Shown here one piece after another: positions 10,659 through 31,489 of a stretch of DNA of 64,000 nt. The stretch's first letter is position 1. Every line of letters starts with the position of its first letter. Origin of the DNA: Collimonas arenae (GTDB lineage: Bacteria; Pseudomonadota; Gammaproteobacteria; Burkholderiales; Burkholderiaceae_D); assembly GCF_000786695.1 (NCBI RefSeq), contig NZ_CP009962.1:4774001-4838000 (forward strand), in the 5' to 3' direction. The notes below the pieces were generated by a model that did not search any database, had not been told where the DNA came from, and worked only from the letters and a program-made list of their open reading frames with translations. A program made the position numbers and the translations under genes.

Positions 10659-13600
10659 TTACTTCCACTTGAAACCGTAGCCAAGGCTTATACCGGCATT
10701 GTGACCGGTAGTGCTGACCCCGGCCCCCCAGGCGCTCATGCCGGTTTTGCTGATGGACTTGAACTGCAGAGCCAGCGCGCCATAACCCTGATATGAGCCG
10801 ATACCGACGCCCACCCCCTTTTCGCCCGCATCCAGAGTCGGCATTACTGCACCCGTCATCGCCATGCTCATGGCGATGCCCGAGTAAGCAATCCGTTGCA
10901 CATTCCCGATCTGGTTCTGTACGTTATTCAGCTGGGACACATTCACGGCATCTGTCGGGTTGATACCTGGCGCAACATTGGTGATACGACGCTCGCTGCC
11001 GGCTGAGCCGACCGATACTGTATTTGCCTGGTCGGCCACCGAGTAGGCGCCCAATGCAACCGAATTGTTCGCCGTCGCTTGCGCACCGGCTCCCATCGCC
11101 ACGGCATCGTTACCCGAAGCCAGGGCGTTATTACCAATCGCCACGGTAGGATCGCCAGTCGCCCTGGCGTTATAGCCAATCGCGACCGAACCGGCTTGCG
11201 ACGCCAGAGCCCGGAAACCTACAGCGGTCGTATTGGTGTCGGTGGCCTGTGCGTTCGAACCTATTGCCGTCGCGCCATCCTTGGTCGCCTGCGCACACAG
11301 GCCGGAACCGGTAGCGTCCACGCCATTCACGCTGCCGCAAGTCGCCGCCGTCACGTTGTTGATCGCCGTACCGGAAGTGCCACGGGTCTGTACTGTGCCA
11401 TCACTATTCGCCCCACCAATGGTGGTCGCGGCAATCGTTGCACCGTTCGCGGCGGCGGCATTGGACGCATCCACCAATGGCTTCAATGCCGTCGACAAGG
11501 ACGTTGCGCCGTTCGTGATATTGCTCAATCCGCTCGACAGCGAAGTGACCTGGCTCAAGCCGGTCGACAGTGACGAAATGCCTGTCGACAAAGAGGAAAT
11601 GCCGCTCGAGGTCGATGAAGACAGAGACGTGACATTACCGTTGGTGGTCGACAAGCCCGTCGACAAAGAATTGACGTTCGACGTGTTGCTCGACAGACCC
11701 GTCGACAGTGAATTGATACTGCTGATGTTGGTGGACAAGCCGGTCGAGGTTGAAGTCGACAAGGAGTTGACGTTGCTGTTGGTGCTGCTCAAGCCGGTCG
11801 ACAATGAATTAATGCCGCTCGTCACCGTGCTCAATCCACTTGAAGTCGACGACGACAAAGACGACAACTGGCCGAAGTTAACCGCATCTGTTGGTCGCGT
11901 ACCCGCTGCAACGTTGGTAAGAATGACTGGTGCAGTAGCGCCAGCGCCTCCTAACGTAACACTCGAATGAGCAGCATTATCGTATTGAACCGAATTCGCA
12001 ACTCCTGTTGACAAGGATGCGATACCAGTTGATGTCGACGTCGACAACAATGTCACGTTGCTGTTCGTTGTGCTCAACCCCGTGGACAGCGAGACGATGC
12101 CGGTCGACAGTGACGTTACATTGCTGTTGATGCCGCTCAAGCCAGTCGACAGCGAGGTCACTGTACTGTTGGTGGTGCTCAGACCGGTCGACAAGGAGCC
12201 AATGTTGCTGGCGTTGGTGCTAATGCCTGTTGATGCCGAAGTCGACAACGACGTCACATTGCTGTTGGTGGTGCTCAAGCCAGTCGACAACGAACCGATG
12301 TTGCTGGCATTGGTGCTGATGCCTGTCGATGTTGACGTCGACAACGAGGTCACATTGCTGTTGGTGGTGCTCAATCCGGTCGACAGCGAACCGATGTTGC
12401 TGGCGTTGGTGCTGATGCCGGTCGAGGTCGACGTGGACAACGACGTCACATTGCTATTGGTCGTGCTCAGGCCGGTCGACAGCGAGCCGATGTTGCTGGC
12501 GTTAGTGCTGATACCGGTCGATGCCGACGTCGACAGCGATGTCACGTTACTGTTGGTGGTGCTCAGGCCAGTCGACAGCGAACCAATATTGCTGGCGTTG
12601 GTGCTGATTCCCGTCGAGGTCGACGTCGACAACGACGTCACATTGCTGTTGGTCGTGCTCAGGCCGGTTGACAGCGAACCAATGTTGCTGGCGTTGGTGC
12701 TGATCCCTGTCGATGCTGAAGTCGACAACGATGTCACATTGCTGTTGGTGGTGCTCAAACCAGTCGACAACGAACCGATGTTGCTGGCGTTCGTGCTGAT
12801 ACCTGTCGATGTTGACGTCGACAGCGAGGTCACATTGCTGTTGGTCGTGCTCAGACCGGTGGACAAGGAACCGATGTTGCTGGCGTTGGTGCTGATCCCA
12901 GTCGAGGCTGAAGTCGACAGCGAGGTTACGTTGCTGTTGGTGGTGCTCAGACCGGTCGACAGCGAACCGATGTTGCTGGCGTTGGTGCTGATACCGGTTG
13001 AGGTCGACGTCGACAGCGACGTCACGTTGCTGTTCGTTGTACTCAGACCTGTCGACAGCGAACCGATGTTGCTGGCGTTGGTGCTGATGCCGGTTGAGGT
13101 CGACGTCGACAGCGACGTCACATTGCTGTTGGTCGTGCTCAAGCCGGTCGACAACGAACCGATGTTGCTGGCATTGGTGCTGATCCCAGTCGAGGCTGAA
13201 GTCGACAGCGATGACACATTGCTGTTGGTCGTGCTCAAGCCAGTCGACAACGAACCGATGTTGCTGGCGTTGGTGCTGATCCCTGTCGAGGTCGACGTCG
13301 ACAACGACGTCACGTTGCTGTTGGTCGTGCTCAACCCAGTTGACAACGAGCCGATATTGCTGGCATTGGTGCTGATCCCTGTCGATGTCGACGTCGACAG
13401 CGAGGTCACATTGCTGTTGGTCGTGCTCAAGCCGGTCGATAAGGAGCCGATGTTGCTGGCGTTGGTACTGATGCCGGTCGAAGCCGATGTCGACAGCGAC
13501 GTCACGTTGCTGTTGGTCGTGCTCAAGCCTGTGGACAGCGAACCAATGTTGCTGGCGTTGGTGCTGATGCCGGTCGAAGTCGACGTCGACAGCGAGGTCA

Positions 13601-16600
13601 CATTGCTGTTGGTCGTGCTCAAGCCGGTCGACAACGAACCGATGTTGCTGGCGTTGGTGCTGATGCCGGTCGAGGTCGAGGTCGACAACGACGTCACGTT
13701 GCTGTTGGTCGTGCTCAGACCGGTGGACAAGGAACCGATATTGCTGGCGTTGGTGCTAATCCCTGTCGAGGTTGACGTCGACAGCGAGGTCACATTGCTG
13801 TTGGTGGTGCTCAAACCAGTCGACAGCGAACCAATATTGCTAGCGTTGGTGCTGATCCCTGTTGATGTCGAAGTCGACAGCGACGTTACGTTGCTATTGG
13901 TGGTGCTCAAACCAGTCGACAGCGAACCGATATTGCTGGCGTTGGTGCTAATCCCTGTCGAGGTTGACGTCGACAGCGAGGTCACATTGCTGTTGGTGGT
14001 GCTCAAACCAGTCGACAGCGAACCAATATTGCTAGCGTTGGTGCTGATCCCTGTTGATGTCGACGTCGACAGCGACGTTACGTTGCTATTGGTGGTGCTC
14101 AAACCGGTCGACAGCGAACCGATATTGCTGGCGTTGGTGCTGATGCCGGTCGATGTCGATGTCGACAACGACGTCACGTTGCTGTTGGTCGTGCTCAATC
14201 CGGTCGACAGCGAACCGATATTGCTGGCGTTGGTGCTGATGCCGGTCGAAGTCGATGTCGACAGCGATGTCACGTTACTGTTGGTGGTGCTCAGGCCGGT
14301 CGACAAAGAACCTATATTGCTGGCGTTGGTGCTGATGCCAGTCGAGGCGGACGTCGACAGCGAAGTCACATTGCTATTGGTGGTGCTCAAACCAGTCGAC
14401 AGCGAACCGATATTGCTGGCGTTGGTGCTGATGCCGGTCGATGTCGATGTCGACAACGACGTCACGTTGCTGTTGGTCGTGCTCAATCCAGTCGACAGCG
14501 AACCGATATTGCTGGCGTTGGTGCTGATGCCAGTCGAGGCGGACGTCGACAGCGACGTCACATTGCTATTGGTCGTGCTCAAACCAGTCGACAGCGAACC
14601 AATGTTGCTGGCGTTGGTGCTGATCCCTGTCGATGTCGAAGTCGACAGCGAGGTCACGTTGCTGTTCGTTGTACTCAGACCTGTCGACAGCGAACCGATG
14701 TTGCTGGCGTTAGTACTGATGCCGGTCGATGCCGAAGTCGACAGCGAGGTCACGTTGCTGTTTGTCGTGCTCAGGCCAGTGGACAACGAACCAATATTGC
14801 TGGCGTTGGTGCTGATCCCTGTCGAGGTCGAGGTCGACAACGACGTCACGTTGCTGTTGGTCGTGCTCAGACCGGTGGACAAGGAACCGATATTGCTGGC
14901 GTTGGTGCTGATGCCGGTCGAAGCCGATGTCGACAGCGACGTCACGTTGCTGTTGGTCGTGCTCAAACCAGTCGACAACGAACCGATGTTACTGGCGTTG
15001 GTGCTGATCCCTGTGGAAGTTGACGTCGACAGCGAGGTTACGTTGCTGTTGGTGGTGCTCAGGCCGGTCGACAACGAACCGATGTTGCTGGCGTTGGTGC
15101 TAATCCCGGTCGAAGTTGAAGTCGAGAGCGACGTCACGTTGCTGTTGGTGGCGCTCAGACCGGTCGACAACGAACCGATATTGCTGGCGTTGGTGCTAAT
15201 GCCCGTTGAGGCGGACGTCGACAGCGAGGACACATTGCTATTGGTGGTGCTCAAACCAGTCGACAATGAACCGATGTTGCTGGCGTTGGTGCTGATGCCA
15301 GTCGATGTCGAAGTCGACAACGACGTCACATTGCTATTGGTTGTGCTCAGGCCAGTCGACAGCGAAGTAATACCGGTCGACGCCGAGGTCGACAATGAAG
15401 TCACGTTGCTGTTGGTCGTGCTCAAGCTACTTGAAGTAGACGACGATAAAGATGACAGTTGGCTGAAATTAACGGCATCAGTTGCGTTCGCCCCAGGTGC
15501 AACATTAGTGAGGGTAACTGGAGCTGTAGCACTTGCACCGCCCAGCGTGACGCTTGTGTGACTAGGACTATCATATTGAACTGAATTAGCAATTCCAGTT
15601 GAAGCCGATGTCGACAAGGAAGTCACATTGCTATTAGTGATGCTCAGGCCCGTCGACAGTGAAGTGATACCGGTCGATGTCGAGGTAGATAACGAAGTCA
15701 CGTTGCTACTGGTGGTACTCAAGCCAGTGGACAACGAAGTGATGCCAGTCGAGGCCGAGGTAGATAACGAAGTCACATTGCTATTGGTGGTGCTCAGGCC
15801 AGTCGACAGCGAAGTAATGCCAGTCGAGGCAGATGTCGACAACGAAGTCACATTGCTATTGGTCGTGCTCAAGCCAGTGGACAACGAAGTGATGCCAGTC
15901 GAAGCCGAAGTCGACAAGGAAGTCACGTTGCTATTGGTGGTGCTCAAGCCAGTGGACAACGAGGTGATGCCGGTCGAGGCAGACGTCGACAAGGACGTCA
16001 CATTGCTATTGGTCGTGCTCAGGCCAGTTGACAACGAAGTGATACCAGTCGAGGCCGAGGTAGACAACGAAGTCACGTTGCTATTGGTGGTGCTCAGGCC
16101 AGTCGACAACGAGGTGATACCGGTCGAAGCCGAGGTCGACAAAGACGTGACGTTGCTATTAGTCGTGCTCAGGCCAGTCGACAACGAGGTGATGCCGGTC
16201 GAAGCAGAGGCCGACAAAGACGTCACGTTGCTATTGGTGGTGCTCAGGCCGGTCGACAACGAAGTGATGCCGGTCGAAGCCGACGTCGACAGTAAAGTCA
16301 CATTGCTGTTAGTCGTGCTCAAGCCAGTCGACAGCGAAGTGATGCCAGTCGACGCTGATGTCGACAACGAAGTCACGTTGCTATTAGTCGTGCTCAGGCC
16401 AGTCGACAACGAGGTGATGCCGGTCGAAGCAGAGGCCGACAAAGACGTCACGTTGCTATTGGTGGTGCTCAGGCCGGTCGACAACGAAGTGATGCCGGTC
16501 GAAGCCGACGTCGACAGTAAAGTCACATTGCTGTTAGTCGTGCTCAAGCCAGTCGACAGCGAAGTGATGCCAGTCGACGCTGATGTCGACAACGAAGTCA

Positions 16601-19066: not shown

Positions 19067-22000
19067 TTACCAGAGCTTGAAATCGACCCCGGCAGATACG
19101 CCCCAGGCGCTGCCGGTCGTACTGACGCCAACACCCCAGGTATTGTTGCCGCTGCGGTTTTTCGCGCGGAACTGCAACGCTAACGCGCCATAACCTTGGT
19201 AAGAACCAATGCCCACGCCAACCCGGCCTTCACCTGGCTCCAGCGCAGAAGTCACCGCGCCCGACATCGCCATGCTCATGGCGATGCCCGAGTAAGCAAT
19301 CCGTTGCACATTCCCGATCTGGTTCTGTACGTTATTCAGCTGGGACACATTCACGGCATCTGTCGGGTTGATACCTGGCGCAACATTGGTGATACGACGC
19401 TCGCTGCCGGCTGAGCCGACCGATACTGTATTTGCCTGGTCGGCCACCGAGTAGGCGCCCAATGCAACCGAATTGTTCGCCGTCGCTTGCGCACCGGCTC
19501 CCATCGCCACGGCATCGTTACCCGAAGCCAGGGCGTTATTACCAATCGCCACGGTAGGATCGCCAGTCGCCCTGGCGTTATAGCCAATCGCGACCGAACC
19601 GGCTTGCGACGCCAGAGCCCGGAAACCTACAGCGGTCGTATTGGTGTCGGTGGCCTGTGCGTTCGAACCTATTGCCGTCGCGCCATCCTTGGTCGCCTGC
19701 GCGCACAGGCCGGTACCGGTAGCGTCCACGCCACTCACGCTGCTGCAGGTCGCTGCCGTCACGTTGTTGATTGCCGTGCCGGAAGTGCCGCGTGTCTGAA
19801 CCGAGCCGTTGCTGTTGGCGCCGCCAATGGTCGTGCCGCCCAGCGTTCCCCCTGTCGCCGTCGCGTTCTTGGAAGCATCCACCAGCGAAGTAAGCGTCGT
19901 CGACAAGGACGTTGCGCCGTTCGTGATATTGCTCAATCCGCTCGAGAGCGAAGTCACCTGGCTCAAGCCGGTCGACAAAGAGGAAATGCCGCTCGAGGTC
20001 GATGAAGACAGAGACGTGACATTACCGTTGGTGATCGACAAGCCCGTCGACAAAGAATTGACGTTCGACGTGTTGCTCGACAGCCCCGTCGACAGCGAAT
20101 TGATACTGCTGGTGTTGGTGGGCAAGCCGGTCGAGGTTGAAGTCGACAAGGAGTTGACGTTGCTATTGGTGTTGCTCAGACCAGTCGACAACGAATTGAT
20201 GCCACTCTTCACCGTGCTCAATCCACTTGATACCGACGACGACAAAGACGACAACTGGCCGAAGTTAACCGCATCCGTTGTCTGCTTACCCGCTGCAACG
20301 TTAGTAAGAATGACTGGTGCAGTAGCGCCAGCGCCTCCTAACGTAACACTCGTGTGAGCAGGATTATCGTACTGAACTGAATTCGCAACTCCCGTTGACA
20401 ACATTGCCACGTTGCTGTTCGTTGTGCTCAACCCAGTGGACAGCGAAACGACGCCCGTCGACAGCGAAGTCACATTGCTGTTGGTGGTGCTTACGCCGGT
20501 TGATAACGAACCGATATTGCTGTTCGTGGTACTCAAGCCAGTCGACAGCGAGGTCACTGTACTGTTGGTGGTGCTCAGCCCCGTCGACAGCGAACCGATA
20601 TTGCTGGCATTGGTGCTGATGCCGGTCGAGGTCGAAGTCGACAGCGAAGTCACGTTGCTATTGGTCGTGCTCAGCCCGGTCGATAACGAACCGATATTGC
20701 TGGCGTTAGTGCTGATCCCGGTTGAGGTCGAAGTCGACAGCGAAGTCACGTTGCTGTTGGTCGTGCTCAAACCAGTCGACAACGAACCAATATTGCTGGC
20801 GTTAGTGCTGATCCCTGTTGATGTCGAAGTCGACAGCGACGTCACGTTGCTATTGGTGGTGCTCAAACCAGTCGACAGCGAACCGATATTGCTGGCGTTG
20901 GTGCTGATGCCGGTCGAAGTCGACGTCGACAGCGAGGTCACGTTGCTGTTGGTCGTGCTCAATCCGGTCGACAGCGAACCGATATTGCTGGCGTTGGTGC
21001 TGATGCCGGTCGAAGTCGATGTCGACAGCGATGTCACGTTACTGTTGGTGGTGCTCAGGCCGGTCGACAACGAACCGATGTTGCTGGCGCTGGTGCTGAT
21101 CCCTGTGGAAGTTGACGTCGACAGCGAGGTCACGTTGCTATTGGTGGTACTCAAGCCAGTCGACAGCGAACCGATGTTGCTGGCGTTGGTGCTGATCCCT
21201 GTCGATGTCGAAGTCGACAACGAGGTCACATTGCTATTGGTGGTACTCAAGCCAGTCGACAAGGAAGTGATGCCCGTCGAAGCAGAAGTCGACAACGAAG
21301 TCACATTACTATTGGTCGTGCTCAGGCCAGTCGACAAGGAAGTCACGTTGCTATTGGTCGTGCTCAAACCAGTCGACAGTGATGTGATACCGGTCGATGC
21401 CGAAGTCGACAAGGAAGTGACATTGCTATTGGTCGTGCTCAAGCCAGTGGACAGCGAGCCGATATTGCTAGCGTTGGTGCTGATCCCTGTCGAGGCGGAC
21501 GTCGACAGCGAGGTCACGTTGCTATTGGTCGTGCTCAGACCAGTCGACAACGAACCGATGTTGCTGGCGTTCGTGCTGATCCCTGTCGATGCTGAAGTCG
21601 ACAACGATGTCACATTGCTATTGGTGGTGCTCAAACCAGTCGACAGCGAACCAATGTTACTGGCATTCGTGCTGATCCCTGTCGACGCCGAAGTCGACAA
21701 CGACGTGACGTTGCTGTTGGTGGTGCTCAGGCCAGTCGACAACGAACCAATGTTGCTGGCGTTAGTGCTGATGCCGGTCGAAGTCGATGTCGACAGCGAT
21801 GTCACGTTACTGTTGGTGGTGCTCAGGCCAGTCGACAGCGAGGTAATACCAGTCGAGATCGAGGTCGACAATGACGCCACATTACTATTTGTTGCGCTTA
21901 AGCCAGTCGACAGCGAAGTAATACCGGTCGAGGCAGAAGTCGACAACGACGTCACATTGCTATTGGTGGTGCTCAAACCAGTCGACAACGAACCGATATT

Positions 22001-25000
22001 GCTGGCGTTGGTGCTGATCCCTGTCGAGGCTGAAGTCGACAACGACGTTACGCTGCTGTTGGTCGTGCTCAAGCCAGTTGACAACGAGCCGATATTGCTG
22101 GCATTGGTGCTGATCCCTGTCGATGTTGAGGTCGACAGCGATGTCACGTTGCTATTGGTGGTGCTCAAGCCAGTCGACAGCGAACCGATGTTGCTGGCGT
22201 TGGTGCTGATACCGGTCGAGGTCGAGGTCGACAACGAGGTCACATTGCTATTGGTGGTACTCAAGCCAGTCGACAAGGAAGTGATGCCCGTCGAAGCTGA
22301 CGTCGACAACGAAGTCACATTGCTATTAGTCGTGCTCAGGCCAGTCGACAGTGATGTGATACCGGTCGATGCCGAAGTCGACAAGGAAGTGACATTGCTA
22401 TTGGTCGTGCTCAGGCCGGTCGACAACGAACCGATGTTGCTGGCATTGGTGCCGATGCCCGTTGAAGTTGAAGTCGACAACGAAGCCACATTGCTATTGG
22501 TCGTGCTCAGACCCGTCGACAACGAGCCAATATTGCTGGCGTTGATGCTGATCCCTGTCGAGGTCGAGGTCGACAACGAGGTAATACCGGTCGACAACGA
22601 GGTCACGTTGCTATTGGTCGTGCTCAAGCCCGTCGACAACGAACCAATATTGCTGGCGTTGGTGCTGATTCCGGTCGAGGTCGACGTCGACAATGAAGTC
22701 ACATTGCTATTGGTCGTGCTCAGACCCGTCGACAACGAACCGATATTGCTGGCGTTGGTGCTGATGCCCGTTGAGGTCGATGTCGACAACGAGGCCACAT
22801 TGCTATTGGTGGTGCTCAAGCCAGTGGACAAGGAACCGATATTGCTGGCGTTGGTGCTGATCCCTGTTGATGTCGAAGTCGACAGCGAAGTCACATTGCT
22901 ATTGGTGGTGCTCAAGCCAGTGGACAGCGAACCGATGATGCTGGCGTTTGTGCTGATGCCAGTCGATGTTGATGTCGACAGCGAGGTCACGTTGCTATTG
23001 GTCGTGCTCAAGCCAGTCGACAACGAACCAATGTTGCTGGCGTTGGTGCTGATTCCGGTCGAGGTCGACGTCGACAATGAAGTCACATTGCTATTAGTCG
23101 TACTCACGCCAGTCGACAGCGAGGTGATACCGGTAGAAGTCGACGTCGACAGCGACGTCACATTGCTATTGGTGGCGCTCAAACCAGTCGACAACGAGGT
23201 GATACCAGTCGAGGTCGATGTCGACAGCGAGGTCACATTGCTGTTGGTCGTGCTCAAACCAGTCGACAGTGATGTGATACCGGTCGATGCCGAAGTCGAC
23301 AAGGAAGTGACATTGCTATTGGTCGTGCTCAGGCCGGTCGACAACGAACCGATGTTGCTGGCGTTGGTGCTGATCCCGGTCGACGTCGAAGTCGACAGCG
23401 AGGTCACGTTGCTGTTGGTTGTGCTCAAACCAGTCGACAACGAACCGATGTTGCTGGCGTTGGTGCTGATCCCTGTCGATGCTGAAGTCGACAACGATGT
23501 TACATTGCTATTGGTGGTGCTCAAGCCAGTCGACAACGAACCGATGTTGCTGGCGTTGGTGCTGACCCCTGTCGATGCTGAAGCCGACAACGATGTTACA
23601 TTGCTATTGGTGGTGCTCAAGCCAGTCGACAACGAACCGATGTTGCTGGCGTTGGTGCTGATACCAGTCGAGGTCGAAGTCGACAGCGAGGTCACGTTGC
23701 TGTTGGTCGTGCTCAGGCCGGTCGACAAGGAACCGATGTTGCTGGCGTTGGTGCTGATACCAGTCGAGGTCGAAGTCGACAGCGAGGTCACGTTGCTGTT
23801 GGTCGTGCTCAGGCCGGTCGACAAGGAACCGATGTTGCTGGCGTTGGTGCTGATCCCGGTCGACGTCGATGTCGACAGCGAGGTCACATTGCTGTTGGTC
23901 GTGCTCAGGCCGGTGGACAATGAACCGATGTTGCTGGCGTTGGTGCTGATGCCTGTCGAGGTCGAAGTCGACAACGACGACACATTGCTATAGGTGGTGC
24001 TCAAGCCAGTCGACAGCGAACCGATGTTGCTGGCGTTGGTGCTGATCCCTGTCGATGTCGAAGTCGACAACGAGGTCACATTGCTATTGGTGGTACTCAA
24101 GCCAGTCGACAGCGAACCGATGTTGCTGGCGTTGGTGCTGATCCCTGTCGATGTCGAAGTCGACAACGAGGTCACATTGCTATTGGTGGTACTCAAGCCA
24201 GTCGACAAGGAAGTGATGCCCGTCGAAGCAGAAGTCGACAACGAAGTCACATTACTATTGGTCGTGCTCAAACCAGTCGACAGTGATGTGATACCGGTCG
24301 ATGCCGAAGTCGACAAGGAAGTGACATTGCTATTGGTCGTGCTCAAGCCAGTGGACAGCGAGCCGATATTGCTGGCGTTGGTGCTGATCCCTGTCGAGGC
24401 GGACGTCGACAGCGAGGTCACGTTGCTATTGGTCGCGCTCAAACCAGTCGACAGCGAAGTGATGCCGGTCGAAGCTGACGTCGACAACGAAGTCACATTG
24501 CTATTAGTCGTGCTCAGGCCAGTCGACAACGAAGCGATGCCGGTCGAAGCCGATATCGACAACGAAGTCACATTGCTATTAGTCGTGCTCACGCCAGTCG
24601 ACAGCGAGGTGATACCGGTCGAAGTCGACGTCGACAGCGACGTCACATTGCTATTGGTGGCGCTCAAACCAGTCGACAACGAGGTGATACCAGTCGAGGT
24701 CGATGTCGACAGCGAGGTCACATTGCTGTTGGTCGTGCTCAAGCCGGTGGACAAGGAACCGATGTTGCTGGCGTTGGTGCTGATCCCGGTCGACGTCGAA
24801 GTCGACAGCGAGGTCACGTTGCTGTTGGTTGTGCTCAAACCAGTCGACAACGAACCAATATTGCTGGCGTTGGTGCTGATCCCCGTCGAGGTCGAAGTCG
24901 ACAACGATGTCACATTGCTGTTGATGGTGCTCAGACCCGTCGACAGCGAACCAATGTTGCTGGCGTTGGTGCTGATGCCGGTCGAGGTCGAAGTCGACAG

Positions 25001-28000
25001 CGAGGTCACATTGCTATTGGTCGTGCTCAGGCCTGTGGACAGCGAACCAATGTTGCTGGCGTTGGTGCTGATCCCTGTTGATGTCGAAGTCGACAGCGAG
25101 GTCACGTTGCTATTGGTCGTGCTCAGACCAGTCGACAACGAACCAATGTTGCTGGCGTTGGTGCTGATCCCTGTCGATGCTGAAGTCGACAACGAGGTCA
25201 CATTGCTATTGGTGGTGCTCAAACCAGTCGACAGCGAACCAATGTTGCTGGCGTTGGTGCTGATACCAGTCGATGTCGAGGTCGACAACGATGTCACATT
25301 GCTGTTGGTCGTGCTCAAGCCAGTTGACAACGAGCCGATATTGCTGGCATTGGTGCTGATCCCTGTCGATGTTGAGGTCGACAGCGATGTCACGTTGCTA
25401 TTGGTGGTGCTCAAGCCAGTCGACAGCGAACCGATGTTGCTGGCGTTGGTGCTGATACCGGTCGAGGTCGAGGTCGACAACGAGGTCACATTGCTATTGG
25501 TGGTACTCAAGCCAGTCGACAAGGAAGTGATGCCCGTCGAAGCTGACGTCGACAACGAAGTCACATTGCTATTAGTCGTGCTCAGGCCAGTCGACAGTGA
25601 TGTGATACCGGTCGATGCCGAAGTCGACAAGGAAGTGACATTGCTATTGGTCGTGCTCAGGCCGGTCGACAACGAACCAATGTCGCTGGCATTGGTGCTG
25701 ATGCCCGTTGAAGTTGAAGTCGACAACGAAGCCACATTGCTATTGGTCGTGCTCAGACCCGTCGACAACGAGCCAATATTGCTGGCGTTGATGCTGATCC
25801 CTGTCGAGGTCGAGGTCGACAACGAGGTAATACCGGTCGACAACGAGGTCACGTTGCTATTGGTCGTGCTCAAGCCCGTCGACAGCGAAGTGATGCCTGT
25901 CGAGGCAGATGTCGACAACGACGTCACATTGCTGTTGGTCGTACTCAAGCCGGTCGACAACGAACCGATATTGCTGGCGTTGGTGCTGATGCCCGTTGAG
26001 GTCGATGTCGACAGCGAGGCCACATTGCTATTGGTGGTGCTCAGGCCAGTGGACAAGGAACCGATATTGCTGGCGTTGGCGCTGATCCCTGTCGATGTCG
26101 ATGTCGACAACGAGGTCACGTTGCTATTGGTCGTGCTCAAGCCAGTCGACAACGAACCAATATTGCTGGCGTTGGTGCTGATTTCGGTCGAGGTCGACGT
26201 CGACAATGAAGTCACATTGCTGTTGGTCGTGCTCAAACCAGTCGACAGCGAGCCAATATTGCTGGCGTTGGTGCTGATCCCTGTCGAAGTTGAAGTCGAG
26301 AGCGACGTCACGTTGCTGTTCGTTGTGCTTAAACCAGTCGACAGCGAAGTGATGCCGGTCGAAGCTGACGTCGACAACGAAGTCACATTGCTATTAGTCG
26401 TGCTCAGGCCAGTCGACAGCGAAGTGATGCCTGTCGAAGCTGATGTCGACAAGGAAGTCACATTGCTGTTGGTCGTACTCAGGCCAGTAGACAACGAGGT
26501 GACCCCGGTCGAAGTTGAAGTCGAGAGCGACGTCACGTTGCTATTGGTCGTGCTCAAGCCGGTCGACAGCGAAGTGATGCCGGTCGAGGCCGAGGTCGAC
26601 AACGAAGTCACATTGCTATTAGTCGTGCTCACGCCAGTCGACAGCGAGGTGATACCGGTAGAAGTCGACGTCGACAGCGACGTCACATTGCTATTGGTGG
26701 CGCTCAAACCAGTCGACAACGAGGTGATACCAGTCGAGGTCGATGTCGACAGCGAGGTCACGTTGCTGTTGGTCGTGCTCAAGCCGGTGGACAAGGAACC
26801 GATATTGCTGACGTTGGTGCTGATGCCGGTCGATGCCGAAGTCGACAACGATGTCACGTTGCTATTGGTCGTGTTCAAACCAGTCGACAGCGAGCCAATA
26901 TTGCTGGCGTTGGCGCTGATCCCTGTTGATGTCGAAGTCGACAACGACGTGACGTTGCTGTTGGTGGTGCTCAGGCCAGTGGACAGCGAGCCAATGTTGC
27001 TGGCGTTTGTGCTGATGCCGGTTGATGTCGACGTCGACAACGAAGCCACGTTGCTATTGGTGGTGCTCAAGCCAGTGGACAACGAACCAATGTTGCTGGC
27101 GTTGGTACTGATCCCTGTCGAGGCTGAAGTCGACAGCGACGTCACATTGCTATTGGTCGTGCTCAGGCCAGTCGACAGCGAGGTGATACCGGTCGACGCC
27201 GAAGTCGACAAGGAAGTCACGTTGCTATTGGTCGTGCTCAAACCAGTCGACAGTGATGTGATACCGGTCGATGCCGAAGTCGACAAGGAAGTGACATTGC
27301 TATTGGTCGTGCTCAAGCCGGTGGACAGCGAACCGATGTTGCTGGCGTTGGTGTTGATGCCGATCGAGGTTGAAGTCGACAGCGAAGTCACGTTGCTGTT
27401 GGTGGTGCTCAAGCCAGTGGACAACGAACCAATATTGCTGGCGTTCGTGCTGATACCGGTCGATGTTGACGTCGACAGCGAGGTCACATTGCTGTTGGTC
27501 GTGCTCAAGCCAGTGGACAACGAACCGATGTTGCTGGCGTTCGTGCTGATGCCCGTCGAGGTCGACGTCGACAACGAAGTCACGTTGCTGTTTGTCGTGC
27601 TCAGGCCAGTCGACAACGAACCGATGTTGCTGGCGTTGGTACTGATGCCGGTCGAGGTCGAAGTCGACAGCGAAGTCACATTGCTGTTGGTGGTGCTCAG
27701 GCCGGTCGACAACGAACCGATGTTGCTGGCGTTGGTACTGATGCCGGTCGATGTTGACGTCGACAGCGAGGTCACATTGCTGTTGGTCGTGCTCAAGCCA
27801 GTGGACAACGAACCGATGTTGCTGGCGTTCGTGCTGATGCCCGTCGAGGTCGACATCGACAACGAAGTCACGTTGCTGTTTGTCGTGCTCAGGCCAGTCG
27901 ACAACGAACCAATATTGCTGGCGTTGGTGCTGATGCCGGTCGATGCCGAAGTCGACAGCGAGGTCACATTGCTGTTGGTCGTGCTCAAGCCAGTCGACAA

Positions 28001-30763
28001 CGAACCAATGTTGCTGGCGTTGGTGCTGATCCCTGTCGATGCTGAAGTCGACAACGATGTCACATTGCTGTTGGTCGTGCTCAAGCCAGTGGACAACGAA
28101 CCGATGTTGCTGGCGTTGGTACTGATCCCTGTCGAGGCTGAAGTCGACAGCGACGTCACATTGCTATTGGTCGTGCTCAGGCCAGTCGATAGCGAAGTCA
28201 CATTACTATTGACCGAGCTCAACCCTGTTGACAACGAAGTGATTCCCGTCGATGCAGAAGTCGACAACGACGTCACGTTGCTATTGGTCGTGCTCAGGCC
28301 AGTCGACAGCGAAGTCACATTGCTGTTGGTCGTGCTCAGGCCCGTTGACAACGAAGTGATACTAGTCGAAGCCGATGTCGACAGCGACGTCACGTTGCTG
28401 TTGGTGATGCTCAAGCCAGTCGACAGTGAAGTGATGCCGGTCGACGCCGATGTAGACAACGAAGTCACATTGCTATTAATCGTGCTCACGCCAGTCGACA
28501 GCGAGGTGATACCGGTCGAAGTCGACGTCGACAGCGACGTCACATTGCTATTGGTGGCGCTCAAACCAGTCGACAACGAGGTGATACCAGTCGAAGTCGA
28601 GGTCGACAAGGAAGTCACATTGCTGTTGGTCGTGCTCAAGCCAGTGGACAACGAACCGATATTGCTGGCGTTGGTGCTGATGCCAGTCGAGATCGAGGTC
28701 GACAATGACGCCACATTACTATTTGTTGCGCTTAAACCAGTCGACAGCGAAGTAATACCGGTCGAGGCAGAAGTCGACAACGACGTCACATTGCTATTGG
28801 TCGTGCTCAGGCCGGTCGACAACGAAGTGATACCAGTCGAGGCCGAGGTCGATAACGAAGTCATGTTGCTATTGGTCGTACTCAATCCAGTCGATAGCGA
28901 AGTGATGCCGGTCGACGCTGATGTCGACAGCGAACCGATTCTGCTGGCGTTGGTGCTAATCCCTGTTGATGTCGAAGTCGACAGCGAGGTCACGTTGCTG
29001 TTCGTGGTGCTCAGGCCAGTCGACAACGAAGTGATGCCGGTCGAGGCTGATGTCGACAACGACGTCACGTTGCTGTTGGTCGTACTCAAGCCGGTCGACA
29101 GCGAGGTGATGCCGGTCGAGGCTGATGTCGACAACGACGTCACGTTGCTGTTGGTCGTACTCAAGCCGGTCGACAGCGAGGTGATGCCGGTCGAGGCCGA
29201 CGTCGACAAGGACGTCACGTTGCTGTTGGCCGTGCTCAAGCCAGTGGACAACGAGCCAATGTTGCTGGCGTTCGTGCTGATGCCAGTCGATGTCGAGGTC
29301 GACAGCGAAGTCACATTGCTGTTCGTGGTGCTCAGGCCGGTCGACAACGAAGTGATACCGGTCGAGGCCGAGGTCGACAATGACGCCACATTACTATTTG
29401 TTGCGCTCAAGCCAGTCGACAACGAGGTAATACCGGTCGATGCCGAAGTCGACAAGGAAGTCACATTGCTATTAGTCGTGCTCAGACCAGTCGACAGCGA
29501 TGTGATGCCGGTCGAAGCCGAGGTCGACAAGGAAGTCACATTGCTATTAGTCGTGCTCAGGCCAGTCGACAATGAGCCGATGTTGCTGGCGTTGGTGCTA
29601 ATCCCGGTCGAAGTTGAAGTAGAGAGCGACGTCACGTTGCTGTTCGTTGTGCTTAAACCAGTCGACAGCGAAGTAATGCTGGTCGAGGCAGAAGTCGACA
29701 ACGACGTCACATTGCTATTGGTCGTGCTCAGGCCGGTCGACAACGAAGTGATACCAGTCGAGGCCGAGGTCGATAGCGAAGTGATGCCGGTCGACGCTGA
29801 TGTCGACAGCGAACCGATTCTGCTGGCGTTGGTGCTAATCCCTGTTGATGTCGAAGTCGACAGCGATGTCACGTTGCTGTTCGCGGTGCTCAGGCCAGTC
29901 GACAGCGAAGTGATACCGGTCGAGGCCGACGTCGACAAGGACGTCACGTTGCTGTTGGTCGTGCTCAGACCGGTTGACAACGAAGTGATGCCGGTCGAGG
30001 TTGATGTCGACAACGAAGTCACGTTGCTATTGGTCGTGCTCAGGCCCGCCGACAGCGAAGTGATACCGGTCGACGCTGAGGTCGACAACGAAGTCACGTT
30101 GCTATTGGTCGTGCTTAGGCCAGTCGACAGCGATGTGATACCGGTCGAGGTCGAGGTCGACAAGGACGTCACGTTGCTATTGGTGGTACTCAAGCCAGTG
30201 GACAACGAAGTGATGCCAGTCGAGGCCGAGGTAGATAACGAAGTCACATTGCTATTGGTCGTGCTCAGGCCAGTTGACAACGAAGTGATACCGGTCGAGG
30301 CAGATGTAGACAAGGACGTCGCATTGCTGTTGGTCGTACTCAAACCGGTCGACAGCGAAGTGATACCGGTCGAGGCCGACGTCGACAAGGACGTCACGTT
30401 GCTATTGGTCGTGCTCAAGCCTGTCGAGAGCGAACCAATGTTGCTGGCATTCGTACTGATACCGGTCGAAGTCAAAGTCGACAAACTAGTAAGGTAAAAC
30501 CTAGTGTTGTTAATATAGTTGACGCACGTAGAAGAGCCGTTATACAAGCTTCCCCCACTGCCTGCAGTACACACAGCTTCTGGCAGGGTCTGTGCAGATG
30601 CATTCTCTGGCGCAAACATAAATAACTGCGCAACGGCAGCGGCCGTTGCCAATACCGCAACCGCCGCCGAATTGCTACGCTTGCCGCGAGCAGCGGTATT
30701 TTCAGAGACAGCAACCCAGGTACCAAGGGTTTCGCTATATACGGTGCGGTAAATTTTATTCAT
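19067..30763 (-). CDS. Giant trimeric autotransporter adhesin (YadA/Hia-like), copy 2, 3898 residues
   Basis: A paralogue of copy 1. It has the same ESPR-type start (MNKIYRTVYSETLGTWVAV), a hydrophobic signal ending ENASA, and only a short non-repetitive piece before the stalk. The stalk runs from about residue 95 to about residue 3450 as an irregular mixture of 25- and 32-residue units. A neck-like module (VQYDNPAHTSVTLGG, TTDAVNFGQL) and a short stalk follow. The head repeats are identical in sequence to copy 1, and the YadA-type anchor ends VSAGVDFKLW with the expected aromatic residue. It should trimerise, insert its anchor in the outer membrane and project a fibre several hundred nanometres long (inference from length). 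The binding target is unknown. No Shine-Dalgarno is visible. Assembly of such repeats is error-prone, so exact unit number is uncertain. Confidence 0.94.
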   Translation of the reverse strand: MNKIYRTVYSETLGTWVAVSENTAARGKRSNSAAVAVLATAAAVAQLFMFAPENASAQTLPEAVCTAGSGGSLYNGSSTCVNYINNTRFYLTSLSTLTSTGISTNASNIGSLSTGLSTTNSNVTSLSTSASTGITSLSTGLSTTNSNATSLSTSASTGITSLSTGLSTTNSNVTSLSTSASTGITSLSTGLSTTNSNVTSLSTSTSTGITSLSTGLSTTNSNVTSLSTSASTGITSLSAGLSTTNSNVTSLSTSTSTGITSLSTGLSTTNSNVTSLSTSASTGITSLSTGLSTANSNVTSLSTSTSTGISTNASRIGSLSTSASTGITSLSTSASTGITSLSTGLSTTNSNVTSLSTSASTSITSLSTGLSTTNSNVTSLSTSTSTGISTNASNIGSLSTGLSTTNSNVTSLSTSASTGITSLSTGLSTTNSNVTSLSTSASTGITSLSTGLSATNSNVASLSTSASTGITSLSTGLSTTNSNVTSLSTSTSTGISTNASNIGSLSTGLSTANSNVTSLSTSASTGITSLSTGLSTTNSNVTSLSTSASTGITSLSTGLSTTNSNVTSLSTSASTGITSLSTGLSTTNSNVTSLSTSTSTGISTNASRIGSLSTSASTGITSLSTGLSTTNSNMTSLSTSASTGITSLSTGLSTTNSNVTSLSTSASTGITSLSTGLSATNSNVASLSTSISTGISTNASNIGSLSTGLSTTNSNVTSLSTSTSTGITSLSTGLSATNSNVTSLSTSTSTGITSLSTGVSTINSNVTSLSTSASTGITSLSTGLSITNSNVTSLSTSASTSITSLSTGLSTTNSNVTSLSTGLSTTNSNVTSLSTSASTGITSLSTGLSSVNSNVTSLSTGLSTTNSNVTSLSTSASTGISTNASNIGSLSTGLSTTNSNVTSLSTSASTGISTNASNIGSLSTGLSTTNSNVTSLSTSASTGISTNASNIGSLSTGLSTTNSNVTSLSMSTSTGISTNASNIGSLSTGLSTTNSNVTSLSTSTSTGISTNASNIGSLSTGLSTTNSNVTSLSTSTSTGISTNASNIGSLSTGLSTTNSNVTSLSTSTSTGISTNASNIGSLSTGLSTTNSNVTSLSTSTSTGISTNASNIGSLSTGLSTTNSNVTSLSTSTSIGINTNASNIGSLSTGLSTTNSNVTSLSTSASTGITSLSTGLSTTNSNVTSLSTSASTGITSLSTGLSTTNSNVTSLSTSASTGISTNASNIGSLSTGLSTTNSNVASLSTSTSTGISTNASNIGSLSTGLSTTNSNVTSLSTSTSTGISANASNIGSLSTGLNTTNSNVTSLSTSASTGISTNVSNIGSLSTGLSTTNSNVTSLSTSTSTGITSLSTGLSATNSNVTSLSTSTSTGITSLSTGVSTTNSNVTSLSTSASTGITSLSTGLSTTNSNVTSLSTSTSTGVTSLSTGLSTTNSNVTSLSTSASTGITSLSTGLSTTNSNVTSLSTSASTGITSLSTGLSTTNSNVTSLSTSTSTGISTNASNIGSLSTGLSTTNSNVTSLSTSTSTEISTNASNIGSLSTGLSTTNSNVTSLSTSTSTGISANASNIGSLSTGLSTTNSNVASLSTSTSTGISTNASNIGSLSTGLSTTNSNVTSLSTSASTGITSLSTGLSTTNSNVTSLSTGITSLSTSTSTGISINASNIGSLSTGLSTTNSNVASLSTSTSTGISTNASDIGSLSTGLSTTNSNVTSLSTSASTGITSLSTGLSTTNSNVTSLSTSASTGITSLSTGLSTTNSNVTSLSTSTSTGISTNASNIGSLSTGLSTTNSNVTSLSTSTSTGISTNASNIGSLSTGLSTTNSNVTSLSTSTSTGISTNASNIGSLSTGLSTTNSNVTSLSTSASTGISTNASNIGSLSTGLSTTNSNVTSLSTSTSTGISTNASNIGSLSTGLSTTNSNVTSLSTSTSTGISTNASNIGSLSTGLSTINSNVTSLSTSTSTGISTNASNIGSLSTGLSTTNSNVTSLSTSTSTGISTNASNIGSLSTGLSTTNSNVTSLSTSTSTGITSLSTGLSATNSNVTSLSTSTSTGITSLSTGVSTTNSNVTSLSISASTGIASLSTGLSTTNSNVTSLSTSASTGITSLSTGLSATNSNVTSLSTSASTGISTNASNIGSLSTGLSTTNSNVTSLSTSASTGITSLSTGLSTTNSNVTSLSTSASTGITSLSTGLSTTNSNVTSLSTSTSTGISTNASNIGSLSTGLSTTNSNVTSLSTSTSTGISTNASNIGSLSTGLSTTYSNVSSLSTSTSTGISTNASNIGSLSTGLSTTNSNVTSLSTSTSTGISTNASNIGSLSTGLSTTNSNVTSLSTSTSTGISTNASNIGSLSTGLSTTNSNVTSLSTSTSTGISTNASNIGSLSTGLSTTNSNVTSLSASASTGVSTNASNIGSLSTGLSTTNSNVTSLSTSASTGISTNASNIGSLSTGLSTTNSNVTSLSTSTSTGISTNASNIGSLSTGLSTTNSNVTSLSTSASTGITSLSTGLSTTNSNVTSLSTSTSTGITSLSTGLSATNSNVTSLSTSTSTGITSLSTGVSTTNSNVTSLSTSTSTGISTNASNIGSLSTGLSTTNSNVTSLSTSTSTGISTNASIIGSLSTGLSTTNSNVTSLSTSTSTGISTNASNIGSLSTGLSTTNSNVASLSTSTSTGISTNASNIGSLSTGLSTTNSNVTSLSTSTSTGISTNASNIGSLSTGLSTTNSNVTSLSTGITSLSTSTSTGISINASNIGSLSTGLSTTNSNVASLSTSTSTGIGTNASNIGSLSTGLSTTNSNVTSLSTSASTGITSLSTGLSTTNSNVTSLSTSASTGITSLSTGLSTTNSNVTSLSTSTSTGISTNASNIGSLSTGLSTTNSNVTSLSTSTSTGISTNASNIGSLSTGLSTTNSSVTSLSTSASTGISTNASNIGSLSTGLSTTNSNVTSLSTSASTGITSLSTGLSATNSNVASLSTSISTGITSLSTGLSTTNSNVTSLSTSTSTGISTNASNIGSLSTGLSTTNSNVTSLSTSASTGISTNASNIGSLSTGLSTTNSNVTSLSTSASTGISTNASNIGSLSTGLSTTNSNVTSLSTSASTGISTNASNIGSLSTGLSTTNSNVTSLSTSASTGITSLSTGLSTTNSNVTSLSTGLSTTNSNVTSLSTSASTGITSLSTGLSTTNSNVTSLSTSTSTGISTNASNIGSLSTGLSTTNSNVTSLSTSTSTGISTSASNIGSLSTGLSTTNSNVTSLSTSTSTGISTNASNIGSLSTGLSTTNSNVTSLSTSTSTGISTNASNIGSLSTGLSTTNSNVTSLSTSTSTGISTNASNIGSLSTGLSTTNSNVTSLSTSTSTGISTNASNIGSLSTGLSTTNSNVTSLSTSTSTGISTNASNIGSLSTGLSTTNSTVTSLSTGLSTTNSNIGSLSTGVSTTNSNVTSLSTGVVSLSTGLSTTNSNVAMLSTGVANSVQYDNPAHTSVTLGGAGATAPVILTNVAAGKQTTDAVNFGQLSSLSSSVSSGLSTVKSGINSLSTGLSNTNSNVNSLSTSTSTGLPTNTSSINSLSTGLSSNTSNVNSLSTGLSITNGNVTSLSSSTSSGISSLSTGLSQVTSLSSGLSNITNGATSLSTTLTSLVDASKNATATGGTLGGTTIGGANSNGSVQTRGTSGTAINNVTAATCSSVSGVDATGTGLCAQATKDGATAIGSNAQATDTNTTAVGFRALASQAGSVAIGYNARATGDPTVAIGNNALASGNDAVAMGAGAQATANNSVALGAYSVADQANTVSVGSAGSERRITNVAPGINPTDAVNVSQLNNVQNQIGNVQRIAYSGIAMSMAMSGAVTSALEPGEGRVGVGIGSYQGYGALALQFRAKNRSGNNTWGVGVSTTGSAWGVSAGVDFKLW
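19265..19702 (-). repeat. Head/neck coding segment shared with copy 1
   Basis: The partner of 10857-11294, offset 8408 bp. The identity stops abruptly at both ends, which fits gene conversion between the tandem copies. Confidence 0.85.
20470..30480 (-). repeat. 10 kb stalk repeat array of adhesin copy 2 (mixed 75 bp and 96 bp units)
   Basis: The array mixes the two unit types of copy 1 without the clean separation seen there. Higher-order duplications are visible: about 22062-22638 recurs at about 25308-25884 with only a few differences, and much of 21160-21530 recurs near 24090-24440. Nearly every unit contains one or more GTCGAC palindromes. Confidence 0.9.
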
Positions 30764-31489
30764 GAATGGCTCTAAGCAAAAGTCACTGCGGCTTGCTGCA
30801 CCAGATCAGACTGATCGAACAAGCGAGATCACATGGAAATGGGGACACTGAAAATGAAGCACTACTAAAGACTGCTAAATGGATGGCCGGCAGGTGTCAT
30901 TTAGCCTCCGGCACGATGGCGCGAACCTGCCGCAACTATTTCGACGCTTGTAAGCGAGATTTTGAAAAAACTTATTTTGTGAAATTCATGCATCTCTTTA
31001 CCCTGGAATTTGTTGCTTCCACGACCACAAAAAATTCAACCTCATCACATCAGAAAGCGGAGGCTCAGACAGCCTGGCTGCTTGATTCAGAGACTGATCG
31101 AAAATTTGACGCTCAGATAACTTGTAAGACAGGCGGAATTTGGTGCCGCTTTTCGCGCTTTACTCAAAGTAACAATATTGGACTTTAAGTAACATTTGTT
31201 GATGCCTTAAATTCTTTTTACAGACCAATTTGCTGCTTAAGTACTACCGAATCCACACCAGCACTGCCTTGAATTTATTTTGGCGTTTTGCTGAAGTGGA
31301 GATATTCCGGGTCACGAGGCATTCGCTGAATCCGAATCGTCTCGACAGTTCGCCAACATTCCAATTTGAACATCAATAAATGTCCAAACTCATGATTTCT
31401 GGGAAGTGCCAAATGTTAATTTCAATTAATATTTATGTCATCTAAATAAGTTCCCCAAAGTCGCCAATAAACAACAAATTTATTCATAT

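Follow-up and report, generated by a model that had tools for sequence, protein, structure and literature searches.

Two adjoining giant genes of Collimonas arenae probably (we put the probability at about 0.65) encode long type Vc fibres in which neutral coiled-coil spacers carry exchangeable tips. By domain content and similarity both products are type Vc trimeric autotransporter adhesins (TAAs), presumably assembling as trimers. Neither the membrane-proximal head nor the SLST stalk is new. If our reading is right, the pair provides a clean natural case, in a soil bacterium and not an animal pathogen, of a giant-fibre tip evolving apart from stalk and base, and a rare example of a coiled coil, thousands of residues long with hardly any charged side chains, in which salt bridges cannot stabilise the helix.

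Domain organisation of the gene pair

The genes lie on the minus strand of the window, the whole 64,000-nucleotide stretch that was analysed, in a chromosome assembled as a single contig of 5,603,532 bases. A sequence-only reading had placed two adjoining ORFs of 2566 and 3898 codons here, each with an ESPR (extended signal peptide) and a YadA anchor, and we recovered the ORFs exactly as claimed, together with both domains. The ESPR scored 69.8 bits (gene 1) and 62.1 bits (gene 2) with PF13018, and the anchor profile PF03895, run against the genome, passed its cut-off at 23.7 and 26.5 bits, while the whole-protein Pfam search left it slightly below (18.7 and 20.3 vs 22.7). Pfam also found YadA_stalk (PF05662) in gene 1; the listing for gene 2 is without it. 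The features are as follows.

10659..18359, minus strand: gene 1 (P0001), TAA of 2566 residues; ORF with ESPR, YadA_stalk and YadA_anchor
18198..18359, minus strand: gene 1 ESPR/extended signal peptide, residues 1-54, putative end point; PF13018
17886..18197, minus strand: gene 1 distal tip with Cys69/Cys86 and neck, residues 55-158; identity to other tips
12060..17882, minus strand: gene 1 SLST stalk array of 25- and 32-residue units; TRF, unit counts, hydrophobic period
15456..15587, minus strand: gene 1 QYD...TLGG...AVNFSQL insert in the array, residues 925-968, neck-like by reading of the sequence; second copy near residue 2125
10995..11273, minus strand: gene 1 membrane-proximal YadA-type beta-roll head, residues ~2363-2455; 7O23, 3S6L, AlphaFold strands
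10662..10886, minus strand: gene 1 end of anchor helix and four-strand membrane anchor, residues ~2492-2566; PF03895, four strands in the model
19067..30763, minus strand: gene 2 (P0002), giant TAA of 3898 residues; ORF with ESPR and YadA_anchor
30593..30763, minus strand: gene 2 ESPR/extended signal peptide, residues 1-57, putative end point; PF13018
30491..30592, minus strand: gene 2 34-residue tip with Cys65/Cys80, residues 58-91; ungapped identity to other genomes
20444..30490, minus strand: gene 2 SLST stalk array, residues 92-3440; TRF, unit count, charge count
19403..19681, minus strand: gene 2 membrane-proximal YadA-type beta-roll, residues ~3695-3787; same segment as gene 1 in alignment
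19070..19294, minus strand: gene 2 anchor, residues ~3824-3898; PF03895
18360..19066, no strand: intergenic stretch, upstream DNA of gene 1; collinear with the upstream DNA of the middle TAA in other species
30764..32094, no strand: AT-rich stretch upstream of gene 2; conservation patchy

No terminator was found between the two genes (shuffles gave a mean of 1.3), and the window contains neither tRNAs nor Rfam matches at gathering thresholds.

The YadA-type head proposed near the membrane end is a left-handed beta-roll, which in gene 1 matches the solved BpaC head (7O23, E 2.1e-34) and the BoaA head (3S6L, E 2.6e-24). An AlphaFold model from a 14-row alignment shows the gene 1 roll as short strands (pLDDT blocks 54-84) and four strands in the anchor. 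The anatomy of a reversed YadA layout is confirmed, but it is not peculiar to this locus, as membrane-proximal beta-rolls are published for BpaC, BoaA and AtaA. The class of BpaC-like C-terminal heads, as proposed in PMC9543794, is defined by a position next to the membrane, a hydrophilic core and a strong negative charge. Both rolls adjoin the anchor; judged by alignment, the core is occupied mainly by A/V/I, the YadA pattern, and is not hydrophilic, and the gene 1 roll carries 4 Asp, 0 Glu, 2 Arg and 0 Lys.

Distal tips are conserved and appear to be exchanged

Copy 2 had been described as almost lacking a distal head, and indeed 34 residues separate its signal (putative end) from the first SLST repeat. 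That the tip would be mostly stalk proved incorrect: copy 2 ends in a conserved 34-residue tip with two cysteines and copy 1 in a tip of 104 residues. In ungapped counts over 34 positions, on which the tip comparison rests, the gene 2 tip is identical at 23-26 positions to tips in four other species (G004, G006, G007 and G009) vs 4-5 positions for the tips of G003 and G011. Gapped identity of a 35-residue tip was discarded as misleading, reaching 54% and 66% even against the unrelated long tips of the latter two genomes. The 34-residue tip occurs in 6 of 15 genomes of the genus; of 399 genomes sampled across the order, 2 have it, and these too belong to the genus. A search of a 5.8-billion-protein set returned 129 candidates, none at E 0.001, a negative that says little because five further copies exist in the genus genomes.

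The TAA base is present in 12 genomes of the genus, and the cluster holds one copy in G002, two here and three in six genomes. At the giant locus sister species carry either the 34-residue two-cysteine tip or a beta-roll head, and the pairs G003/G004 (flank 94.3% identical) and G006/G011 (flank 90.8%) each differ in tip type. The tip of gene 1 is 75-83% identical to the tips of other-locus TAAs in G003, G004, G006 and G011, compared with 37-49% for the middle genes of the cluster. Gene 1 combines this other-locus-type tip with a cluster-type base, and the DNA upstream of it keeps the collinear order of the cluster; the intergenic stretch matches at 68-71% over 593-857 bases in G003, G004, G006, G007, G008 and G011.

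AU tests were applied to groups named only after identity tables and trees (of the "quick" kind) had been inspected. On the N parts, for which 190 of 1066 columns were kept, the rejected groupings were G006+G011 (p 5e-57), G003+G004 (2e-5), G009+G002 (0.0014) and that of gene 1 plus the middle genes (1e-7); on the C-terminal parts they were G003+G011 (4e-4) and that of gene 1 plus the other-locus genes (0.024). Two further mosaics were sought and not upheld: the C-terminal data failed to reject G009 with the giants (p 0.54) and the four other-locus genes together (p 0.61). The trees give gene 1 no firm place among the cluster bases, and since arrays of different species no longer align, the position of a recombination joint within the stalk cannot be fixed. 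From these sequence comparisons, genes and species seem to have exchanged tips.

Tip differences could also reflect old allelic lineages sorted by descent, combined with repeated duplication and loss of TAA genes instead of recombination between loci. The variable copy number of the cluster (one to three bases) and the abundance of TAA genes, with 14 YadA-type anchors found by a profile search of this genome, fit such a history. We consider it unlikely, however, as sister pairs match in flanks and C-terminus and differ in tip, and as the N and C parts of gene 1 follow different families although the DNA upstream is collinear with the cluster; every such gene must contain a joint.

The stalk is almost free of charge and its units are under selection

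The stalk, earlier called Ser/Thr-only, is Ser/Thr-rich (56% Ser+Thr), but "only" was an overstatement, the remainder being mostly N, L, G, I, A and V. Gene 2 has 8 K/R/D/E in 3506 stalk residues, and none of the 209 proteins returned by our searches contains a 200-residue window as charge-poor. Uniqueness of the charge-free stalk to Collimonas was ruled out: in a search at E 1e-12, 3 of 399 genomes matched, two from the genus and the third, G363, from another family, with a similar array in a stretch that holds 1961 N. The array of gene 2 comprises 53 units of 32 and 40 units of 25 residues, and TRF resolved that of gene 1 into periods of 96 and 75, repeated 33.6 and 30.3 times. The peptide ISTNASNI is repeated in both genes, with 51 copies in gene 2 and 33 in gene 1; G009 has 22, and the five other giants scanned have none.

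In their DNA the units are nearly all distinct (35 of 40, 51 of 53, 23 of 25 and 33 of 33), and their synonymous divergence is high (pS 0.45-0.49, ~0.47), yet pN/pS is 0.023-0.078, a pattern indicating that strong selection holds the unit peptides near one sequence. The two genes contain 216 and 131 GTCGAC hexamers, which were not taken for a special DNA signal since their abundance follows from Leu NTG, Ser TCG and Thr ACN codons.

Stalk DNA is shared between unlinked genes. Between 5 and 20% of the stalk 30-mers of both genes recur in each of six of the 12 other TAAs of the genome, and the longest exact runs shared with unlinked genes of the same genome measure 197 and 158 bases, whereas no gene tested from another genome shares a run above 53. 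Stalk DNA common to every TAA of the genome was ruled out, as the other six (o1, o4, L049, L050, L051 and one on a small contig) contain at most 2% of the 30-mers and share stalk DNA with the pair at not above about the between-species level. Among cluster genes of other genomes the fraction is 0-1% in G002, G003, G004, G006, G007 and G011 and 4-5% in G009. Given the high synonymous divergence among units, most of this exchange is old.

Repeats of this composition might themselves be the adhesive surface, their Ser/Thr/Asn side chains, bare or glycosylated, being nonspecifically sticky and the tip merely a cap. The shortness of the gene 2 tip, the Ser/Thr content, the strong selection on the unit peptides and the concentration of N-x-S/T sequons in the stalk (101 of 115 and 171 of 186) all agree with this, as does a GT41 glycosyltransferase on the 41-kb contig of the genome. 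The GT41 family, however, is found in just 4 of the 12 genus genomes with the TAA base, and mere caps would not need to be conserved and exchanged as the tips are, which leaves adhesion by the repeats a minor possibility. A search of the genome with TIGR04414 (AAH/TibC-type heptosyltransferase) gave no match, its control matching E. coli only and below the cut-off, and HMW1C_N likewise gave none, an absence that carries no weight as the control was equally silent. Glycosylation as the main function was set aside on the lack of a TIGR04414 match and the confinement of GT41 to the 41-kb contig in this genome and to 4 of 12 base-bearing genomes, and is retained solely as part of this alternative.

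The stalk shows coiled-coil periodicity

All seven stalks examined have a hydrophobic period of 3.56-3.60 residues (3.56 in both genes), with a power of 14.9-17.0; shuffled sequences (20 per stalk) did not exceed 2.02, and the power at beta-like periods stayed at or below 5.75. Placed on a helix, the L/I/V residues span 86 degrees in the 25-residue unit and 90 degrees in the 32-residue unit, and random placements were equally tight in 34 and 7 of 5000 cases. Hydrophobic residues are arranged in units of 11 and 7 in coiled-coil fashion: SLS motifs are spaced by 7, 11, 14, 18 or 25 residues in 240 of 242 cases in gene 2 and 137 of 142 in gene 1, and there are 109 and 67 candidate starts of 11-residue segments. 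From period and spacing we infer that the stalk is a coiled coil. A trimeric halide-binding coiled coil with I/V at a and Asn at d ([I/V]xxNxxx) is described in PMC12933892; the ISTNASNI peptides counted above are candidates for this pattern.

Matches to solved structures were weak and of low complexity, the best being reovirus sigma-1 at 2.9e-4, and were set aside. A single-sequence AlphaFold monomer of gene 2 residues 57-260 builds the stalk from beta strands (pLDDT 58.8 on average, ~50-82 in the stalk blocks), while the model from the 14-row alignment renders the SLST part as helix or coil (pLDDT mostly <50), so that neither settles the fold. A Ser/Thr-rich beta rod (beta-solenoid or beta-prism) would accord with the modelled strands and with the alternating S-x-S-x pattern in SLSTSASTG, and Ser, Thr, Gly and Asn disfavour helix. 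Such a rod is nevertheless distinctly improbable in view of the hydrophobic period in all seven stalks, the 7/11 spacing and the low-confidence helix or coil of the alignment-based model, and 11-residue coiled-coil segments have been solved in the TAA NadA3 (PMC6191539).

Judged from the assembled sequence, the array size is no obvious assembly error. Although the repeats are tandem and contigs of draft Collimonas genomes break off close to arrays or within them (L009-L011), it is hardly credible that the lengths are artefacts, as nearly all units diverge in DNA, the longest exact repeats inside genes 1 and 2 are 379 and 251 bases, the chromosome is in one contig and the giant has counterparts of similar length (3431-3998 codons) in six other genomes.

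Model of fibre assembly and tip exchange

In the fibre model that we favour, three chains would thread their own anchor barrel, after which the SLST array would wind into a long, trimeric and almost uncharged coiled coil in which segments of 11 and 7 residues alternate. The N-terminal tip would thereby be carried to the far end, ~0.5 micrometre out for gene 2 and ~0.3 micrometre for gene 1 on the assumption that each helical residue adds 0.148 nm. The stalk would act as a neutral spacer and the tip (34 residues in gene 2, ~100 in gene 1) as the likely contact part, with fungal hyphae or other soil surfaces as conceivable targets. A cassette of ESPR and tip, sometimes with promoter DNA, would move between loci and lineages onto the base of another fibre, the SLST stalk common to these genes being the likely downstream joint.

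More tentatively, the Collimonas TAA set may follow one plan, in which the charge-free, exactly phased 11+7n stalk, constant in peptide and passing its DNA between unlinked loci, is both half-micrometre spacer and common splice joint, by which small tips from other loci could move onto another base. This is possible rather than probable; if true, a soil-dwelling, fungus-feeding bacterium changes what its longest fibres hold while leaving the fibres unchanged.

Comparison with known systems

The architecture of BoaA and BoaB, as described in PMC2955633, includes serine-rich SLST repeats, a C-terminal beta-roll, a YadA anchor and, as paralogues, near-identical C-termini, but BoaA has additional N-terminal beta-roll repeats; its solved head 3S6L is the membrane-proximal roll (PMC9543794). 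BCAM2418 of Burkholderia cenocepacia is likewise described as a long TAA whose extensive serine-rich repeats vary in size and bear an SLST signature (PMC7142374). BpaC shares the membrane-proximal left-handed roll ending in an ERRITNVA...DAVNV neck (PMC9543794), but its roll is long with a hydrophilic core, much of 7O23 consisting of S/T/N-A-x-G layers, in contrast to the short roll of the pair with A-I-G/V-A-I-G layers as in YadA. AtaA of Acinetobacter Tol 5 is also a giant TAA (3,630 aa), with a tip head, a membrane-proximal Chead and a fibre of 225 nm (PMC4910087); unlike gene 2 it has a full distal head. NadA3, like the pair, intersperses 11-residue coiled-coil segments among heptads, but by the same structural account (PMC6191539) it has two of them vs the 109 and 67 candidate starts found here. 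Periscope proteins, as defined in PMC9704523, are monomeric chains of individually folding, near-identical repeats, a definition that excludes TAAs.

The badA island of Bartonella henselae is a TAA island in which repeats are proposed to favour reshuffling and neighbouring copies exchange anchors (PMC8859334). There the N-terminal part is conserved while stalk and anchor vary within the species, as described in that work; in the Collimonas cluster the tip varies and flanks and base stay.

The gene pair and its setting

The host genome consists of a chromosome of 5.60 Mb, of which the window covers 4,774,001-4,838,000, and a second contig of 41 kb, and a genome profile search identified 14 YadA anchors in it. 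Neighbouring trimeric autotransporter adhesin (TAA) genes occur at three places, with anchors at 2.345/2.354, 2.844/2.854 and 4.785/4.793 Mb. The two genes studied here are classed as TAAs:

10659-18359, (-), gene 1, TAA, open reading frame of 2566 residues
19067-30763, (-), gene 2 (the giant), TAA, open reading frame of 3898 residues, adjacent to gene 1

Both encode, in this order, an ESPR signal, a short N-terminal tip, a long stalk of SLST repeats, a short YadA-type beta-roll and the YadA anchor. The sequence-only reading had placed a head beside the anchor and regarded this layout as the reverse of that of YadA; the head is indeed there, but the layout has already been published. Passages in the literature describe membrane-adjacent beta-rolls as the C-terminal head of BpaC (PMC9543794) and the Chead of AtaA (PMC4910087), and SLST repeats in BoaA and BoaB (PMC2955633) and in BCAM2418 (PMC7142374). 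BoaA also has a beta-roll adjoining the membrane (3S6L), as in genes 1 and 2. Long TAAs with a related base (C-terminal part) are common in Burkholderiales, with 2007-4322 residues among the 120 of 2189 matches listed, in a search that admitted only about 1411-4490 residues. The size and layout of the pair are therefore ordinary. All 12 named loci matched by the base of gene 1 belong to Collimonas, which places the organism in this genus or close beside it.

Two cysteines 14 residues apart precede the membrane-proximal roll (residues 2341/2355 in gene 1 and 3673/3687 in gene 2) and are present in every one of the 14 Collimonas rows aligned; among the 120 of 2189 relatives listed, none has a cysteine in the last 320 residues. 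Antisense open frames run through both arrays on the (+) strand (23994-30497, 20412-23993, 12058-15561 and 15628-17949; 2167, 1193, 1167 and 773 codons); they are a by-product of the repeat and easily mis-annotated. A Cpn60-family chaperonin gene (6011-7663, (+)) lies beside the TAA cluster, its score of 272.6 bits being apparently low for an ordinary GroEL, and a polysaccharide export gene with Poly_export and SLBB domains (2712-3833, (-)) is located nearby. The 41-kb contig (C2, stretch L052) carries a TPR and GT41 glycosyltransferase gene (469-2352) and, a few genes apart, a TAA of 758 residues (5194-7470), surrounded by ssb, OmpA-like and VirB10/VirB11-like (conjugation) genes; GT41 and the anchor were named by profile, the others from their translations.

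The cluster across the genus

The base was found at E 1e-40 in 12 of 15 genus genomes. Three bases stand in a row in G003, G004, G006, G007, G008 and G011, two in the own genome (G000) and one in G002. Where the fetched stretches reach, the flanks are kept: the cluster sits between a gene for an NlpA/MetQ-like lipoprotein and one for a GTPase. The giant occupies the upstream end in the own genome and in the five genomes that have that gene complete (frames of 3435-4012); some cluster genes are incomplete in the assemblies, namely the downstream one of G004 (frame 987) and that of G008 (with N). The middle gene of G011 is out of frame in its N part from the ESPR on (L087, about 16216), an apparent frame break in the assembly.

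Tips and bases with different histories

The giant carries a 34-residue two-cysteine tip in G000, G004, G006, G007 and G009, a tip also present at a contig end in G012, and a YadA-type beta-roll tip of about 236-286 residues in G003 and G011, as does the single gene of G002. G003 has the roll and G004 the two-cysteine tip although their flanks are 94.3% and their C-termini 95% identical, and the same holds for G011 and G006, respectively, although flank and C-terminus are 90.8% and 98% identical. In AU tests, whose groups were picked with the identities already known and which used trees of a quick kind, grouping of the N parts was rejected for G006 with G011 (p 5e-57) and for G003 with G004 (p 2e-5), as was grouping of the C parts of G003 and G011 (p 4e-4). 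The point at which identity drops lies at about +100 bases in G007/G011 and about -600 in G003/G004; since it differs between pairs, promoter DNA sometimes appears to move with the tip.

Gene 1, judged by the comparisons below, is a mosaic of an N part of the type found at other loci and a cluster-type base. The TAAs most similar to it in signal (74-80%) and tip (75-83%) lie at other loci in G003, G004, G006 and G011, e.g. the G003 TAA at 2.99 Mb (G003 cluster at 4.78 Mb), whereas identity to the cluster middle genes is 52-57% for the signal, leaving out one of the five (that of G011, 20%, its N part being out of frame as cut), and 37-49% for the tip. For its C-terminus, however, identity is 85-90% with the middle genes and 91% with that of G002, versus 65-76% with the other-locus genes. 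Upstream of gene 1, about 250-500 bases can be aligned with the middle genes, compared with only 101-111 bases, at a different distance from the start, for two of the other-locus genes. Grouping gene 1 with the middle genes was rejected for the N part (1e-7), and grouping it with the other-locus genes was rejected, not strongly, for the C part (0.024).

The N part of G009 as sister of that of G002 was rejected as well (AU, p 0.0014). A mosaic base in G009 (p 0.54) and in four other-locus genes (p 0.61) was not upheld by AU tests of the C parts. Aligned to the gene 1 tip, those of two own-genome TAAs, L045 and L046, give 57% (o5) and 41% (o6); unrelated tips score as high as o6.

Stalk DNA shared between loci

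Sharing was measured as codon-phased 30-mers of the two stalks compared. Between genes 1 and 2, 18-24% of the stalk 30-mers recur in each other, and 5-20% recur in each of six of 12 other own-genome TAAs (o2, o3 and o5-o8), all at least 0.05 Mb from the pair; the remaining six (o1, o4, L049, L050, L051 and the small-contig TAA) share at most 2%. Cluster genes of G002, G003, G004, G006, G007 and G011 share 0-1% and those of G009 4-5%; conversely, the giant's stalk contains up to 3% of the 30-mers of a foreign cluster gene (4% for G009). The longest exact runs with unlinked genes are 197 and 158 bases, while no run with another genome's gene exceeds 53. Stalk DNA has thus moved between some loci of the own genome, whereas the giant's C-terminal part tracks orthology, at 90-92% identity to five orthologues, 82% to G009 and 86% to gene 1. 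In the other genomes, at most 1% of the 30-mers of the giant's stalk occur in the stalks of neighbouring genes, so that it hardly overlaps with theirs; free sharing with the giant is thus a trait of this genome and not of the genus.

Elsewhere in the own genome, stalks share exact runs of 227 bases (the neighbouring L042 and L043) and 427 bases (the unlinked L047 and L048); the C-terminal 262 residues of the unlinked L043 and L047 (2.35 and 3.14 Mb) are almost identical (branches 0.0037 and 0.0036).

Within a gene, roughly every second synonymous site differs between units (pS 0.45-0.49), but the encoded peptide hardly changes, with pN/pS of 0.054 and 0.078 in gene 2 and 0.023 and 0.046 in gene 1. 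Distinct at the DNA level are 35 of 40 and 51 of 53 units in gene 2 and 23 of 25 and 33 of 33 in gene 1. The arrays are old repetition kept by purifying selection rather than recent slippage. In both arrays serine codons depend on position, TCN being used in the SLSTS(A/T)S part and AGY at unit positions 19 and 23 (25-residue unit) or 12, 16, 26 and 30 (32-residue unit), with a similar split in G003, G006 and G011; this points to common descent of the units.

A nearly charge-free stalk

The stalk contains 8 K/R/D/E in 3506 residues in gene 2 and 6 in 2107 in gene 1. As seven counterparts in other genus genomes are similarly poor (12-39 in 2665-3572 stalk residues), low charge is common to the genus. 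Windows of 200 residues with at most 1% charged residues occur in none, and with at most 2.5% in 11, of 209 comparison proteins (non-independent, chosen by similarity and from among the matches listed, four of them lacking the neck motif and probably no TAAs), versus 88% and 77% of windows in genes 2 and 1. A similar array in G363, a genome of another family, indicates that the stalk type is not confined to Collimonas. This charge-poor SLST array (L125, 3250-13948, (-)) has an ESPR-like start and an anchor-like end; the stretch contains 1961 N, and its pieces were read separately.

The units are built as 11+7+7 (25 residues) or 11+7+7+7 (32 residues), and the hydrophobic period is 3.56-3.60 residues in all seven stalks tested, which would be compatible with a slightly left-handed coiled coil. 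Segments of 11 residues are described in the solved structure of NadA3 (PMC6191539). The extra heptad I-STN-ASN matches [I/V]xxNxxx, described as a halide site (PMC12933892), and is thus a candidate for such a site; it is present in 51 copies in gene 2, 33 in gene 1 and 22 in G009, and in none of the other five giants scanned. A single-sequence AlphaFold model counted against the coiled coil, drawing the stalk as beta strands (stalk blocks at about pLDDT 50-82). An alignment-based model of gene 1, covering its last 467 residues, shows helix or coil in the SLST part, mostly at pLDDT <50, together with a beta-roll and the four strands of the anchor, both at about pLDDT 54-84.

Proposed mechanism and comparison with known systems

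The best supported reading of the sequences is that the predicted coiled-coil stalk would serve as a neutral, very long spacer presenting a small tip, and that tips may be transferred between bases as cassettes. The ESPR/promoter region would form the upstream joint of the cassette, and the SLST stalk, being common to these genes, is the likely downstream joint; the arrays no longer align, hence its position inside the stalk cannot be fixed. At an assumed 0.148 nm per residue, predicted fibre lengths are about 0.5 (gene 2) and 0.3 micrometre (gene 1), values calculated from the genes, whereas 225 nm is given for AtaA in a published passage. Fungal hyphae are a plausible putative target, as Collimonas fungivorans is described as requiring physical attachment to hyphae to feed on them (PMC8398733).

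Among the literature matches listed, judged by title and start of abstract and with subscription papers mostly outside, we found neither tip exchange in Collimonas nor a charge-free TAA stalk, and the combination of the two may be a new variation among TAAs. Recombination among TAAs has been reported for Brucellaceae in a passage of PMC7688925. The nearest published behaviour to the tip exchange seen here is, from the cited passages, that of the badA island; there, a conserved N-terminal part is combined with a stalk and anchor that undergo reshuffling within a species (PMC8859334).
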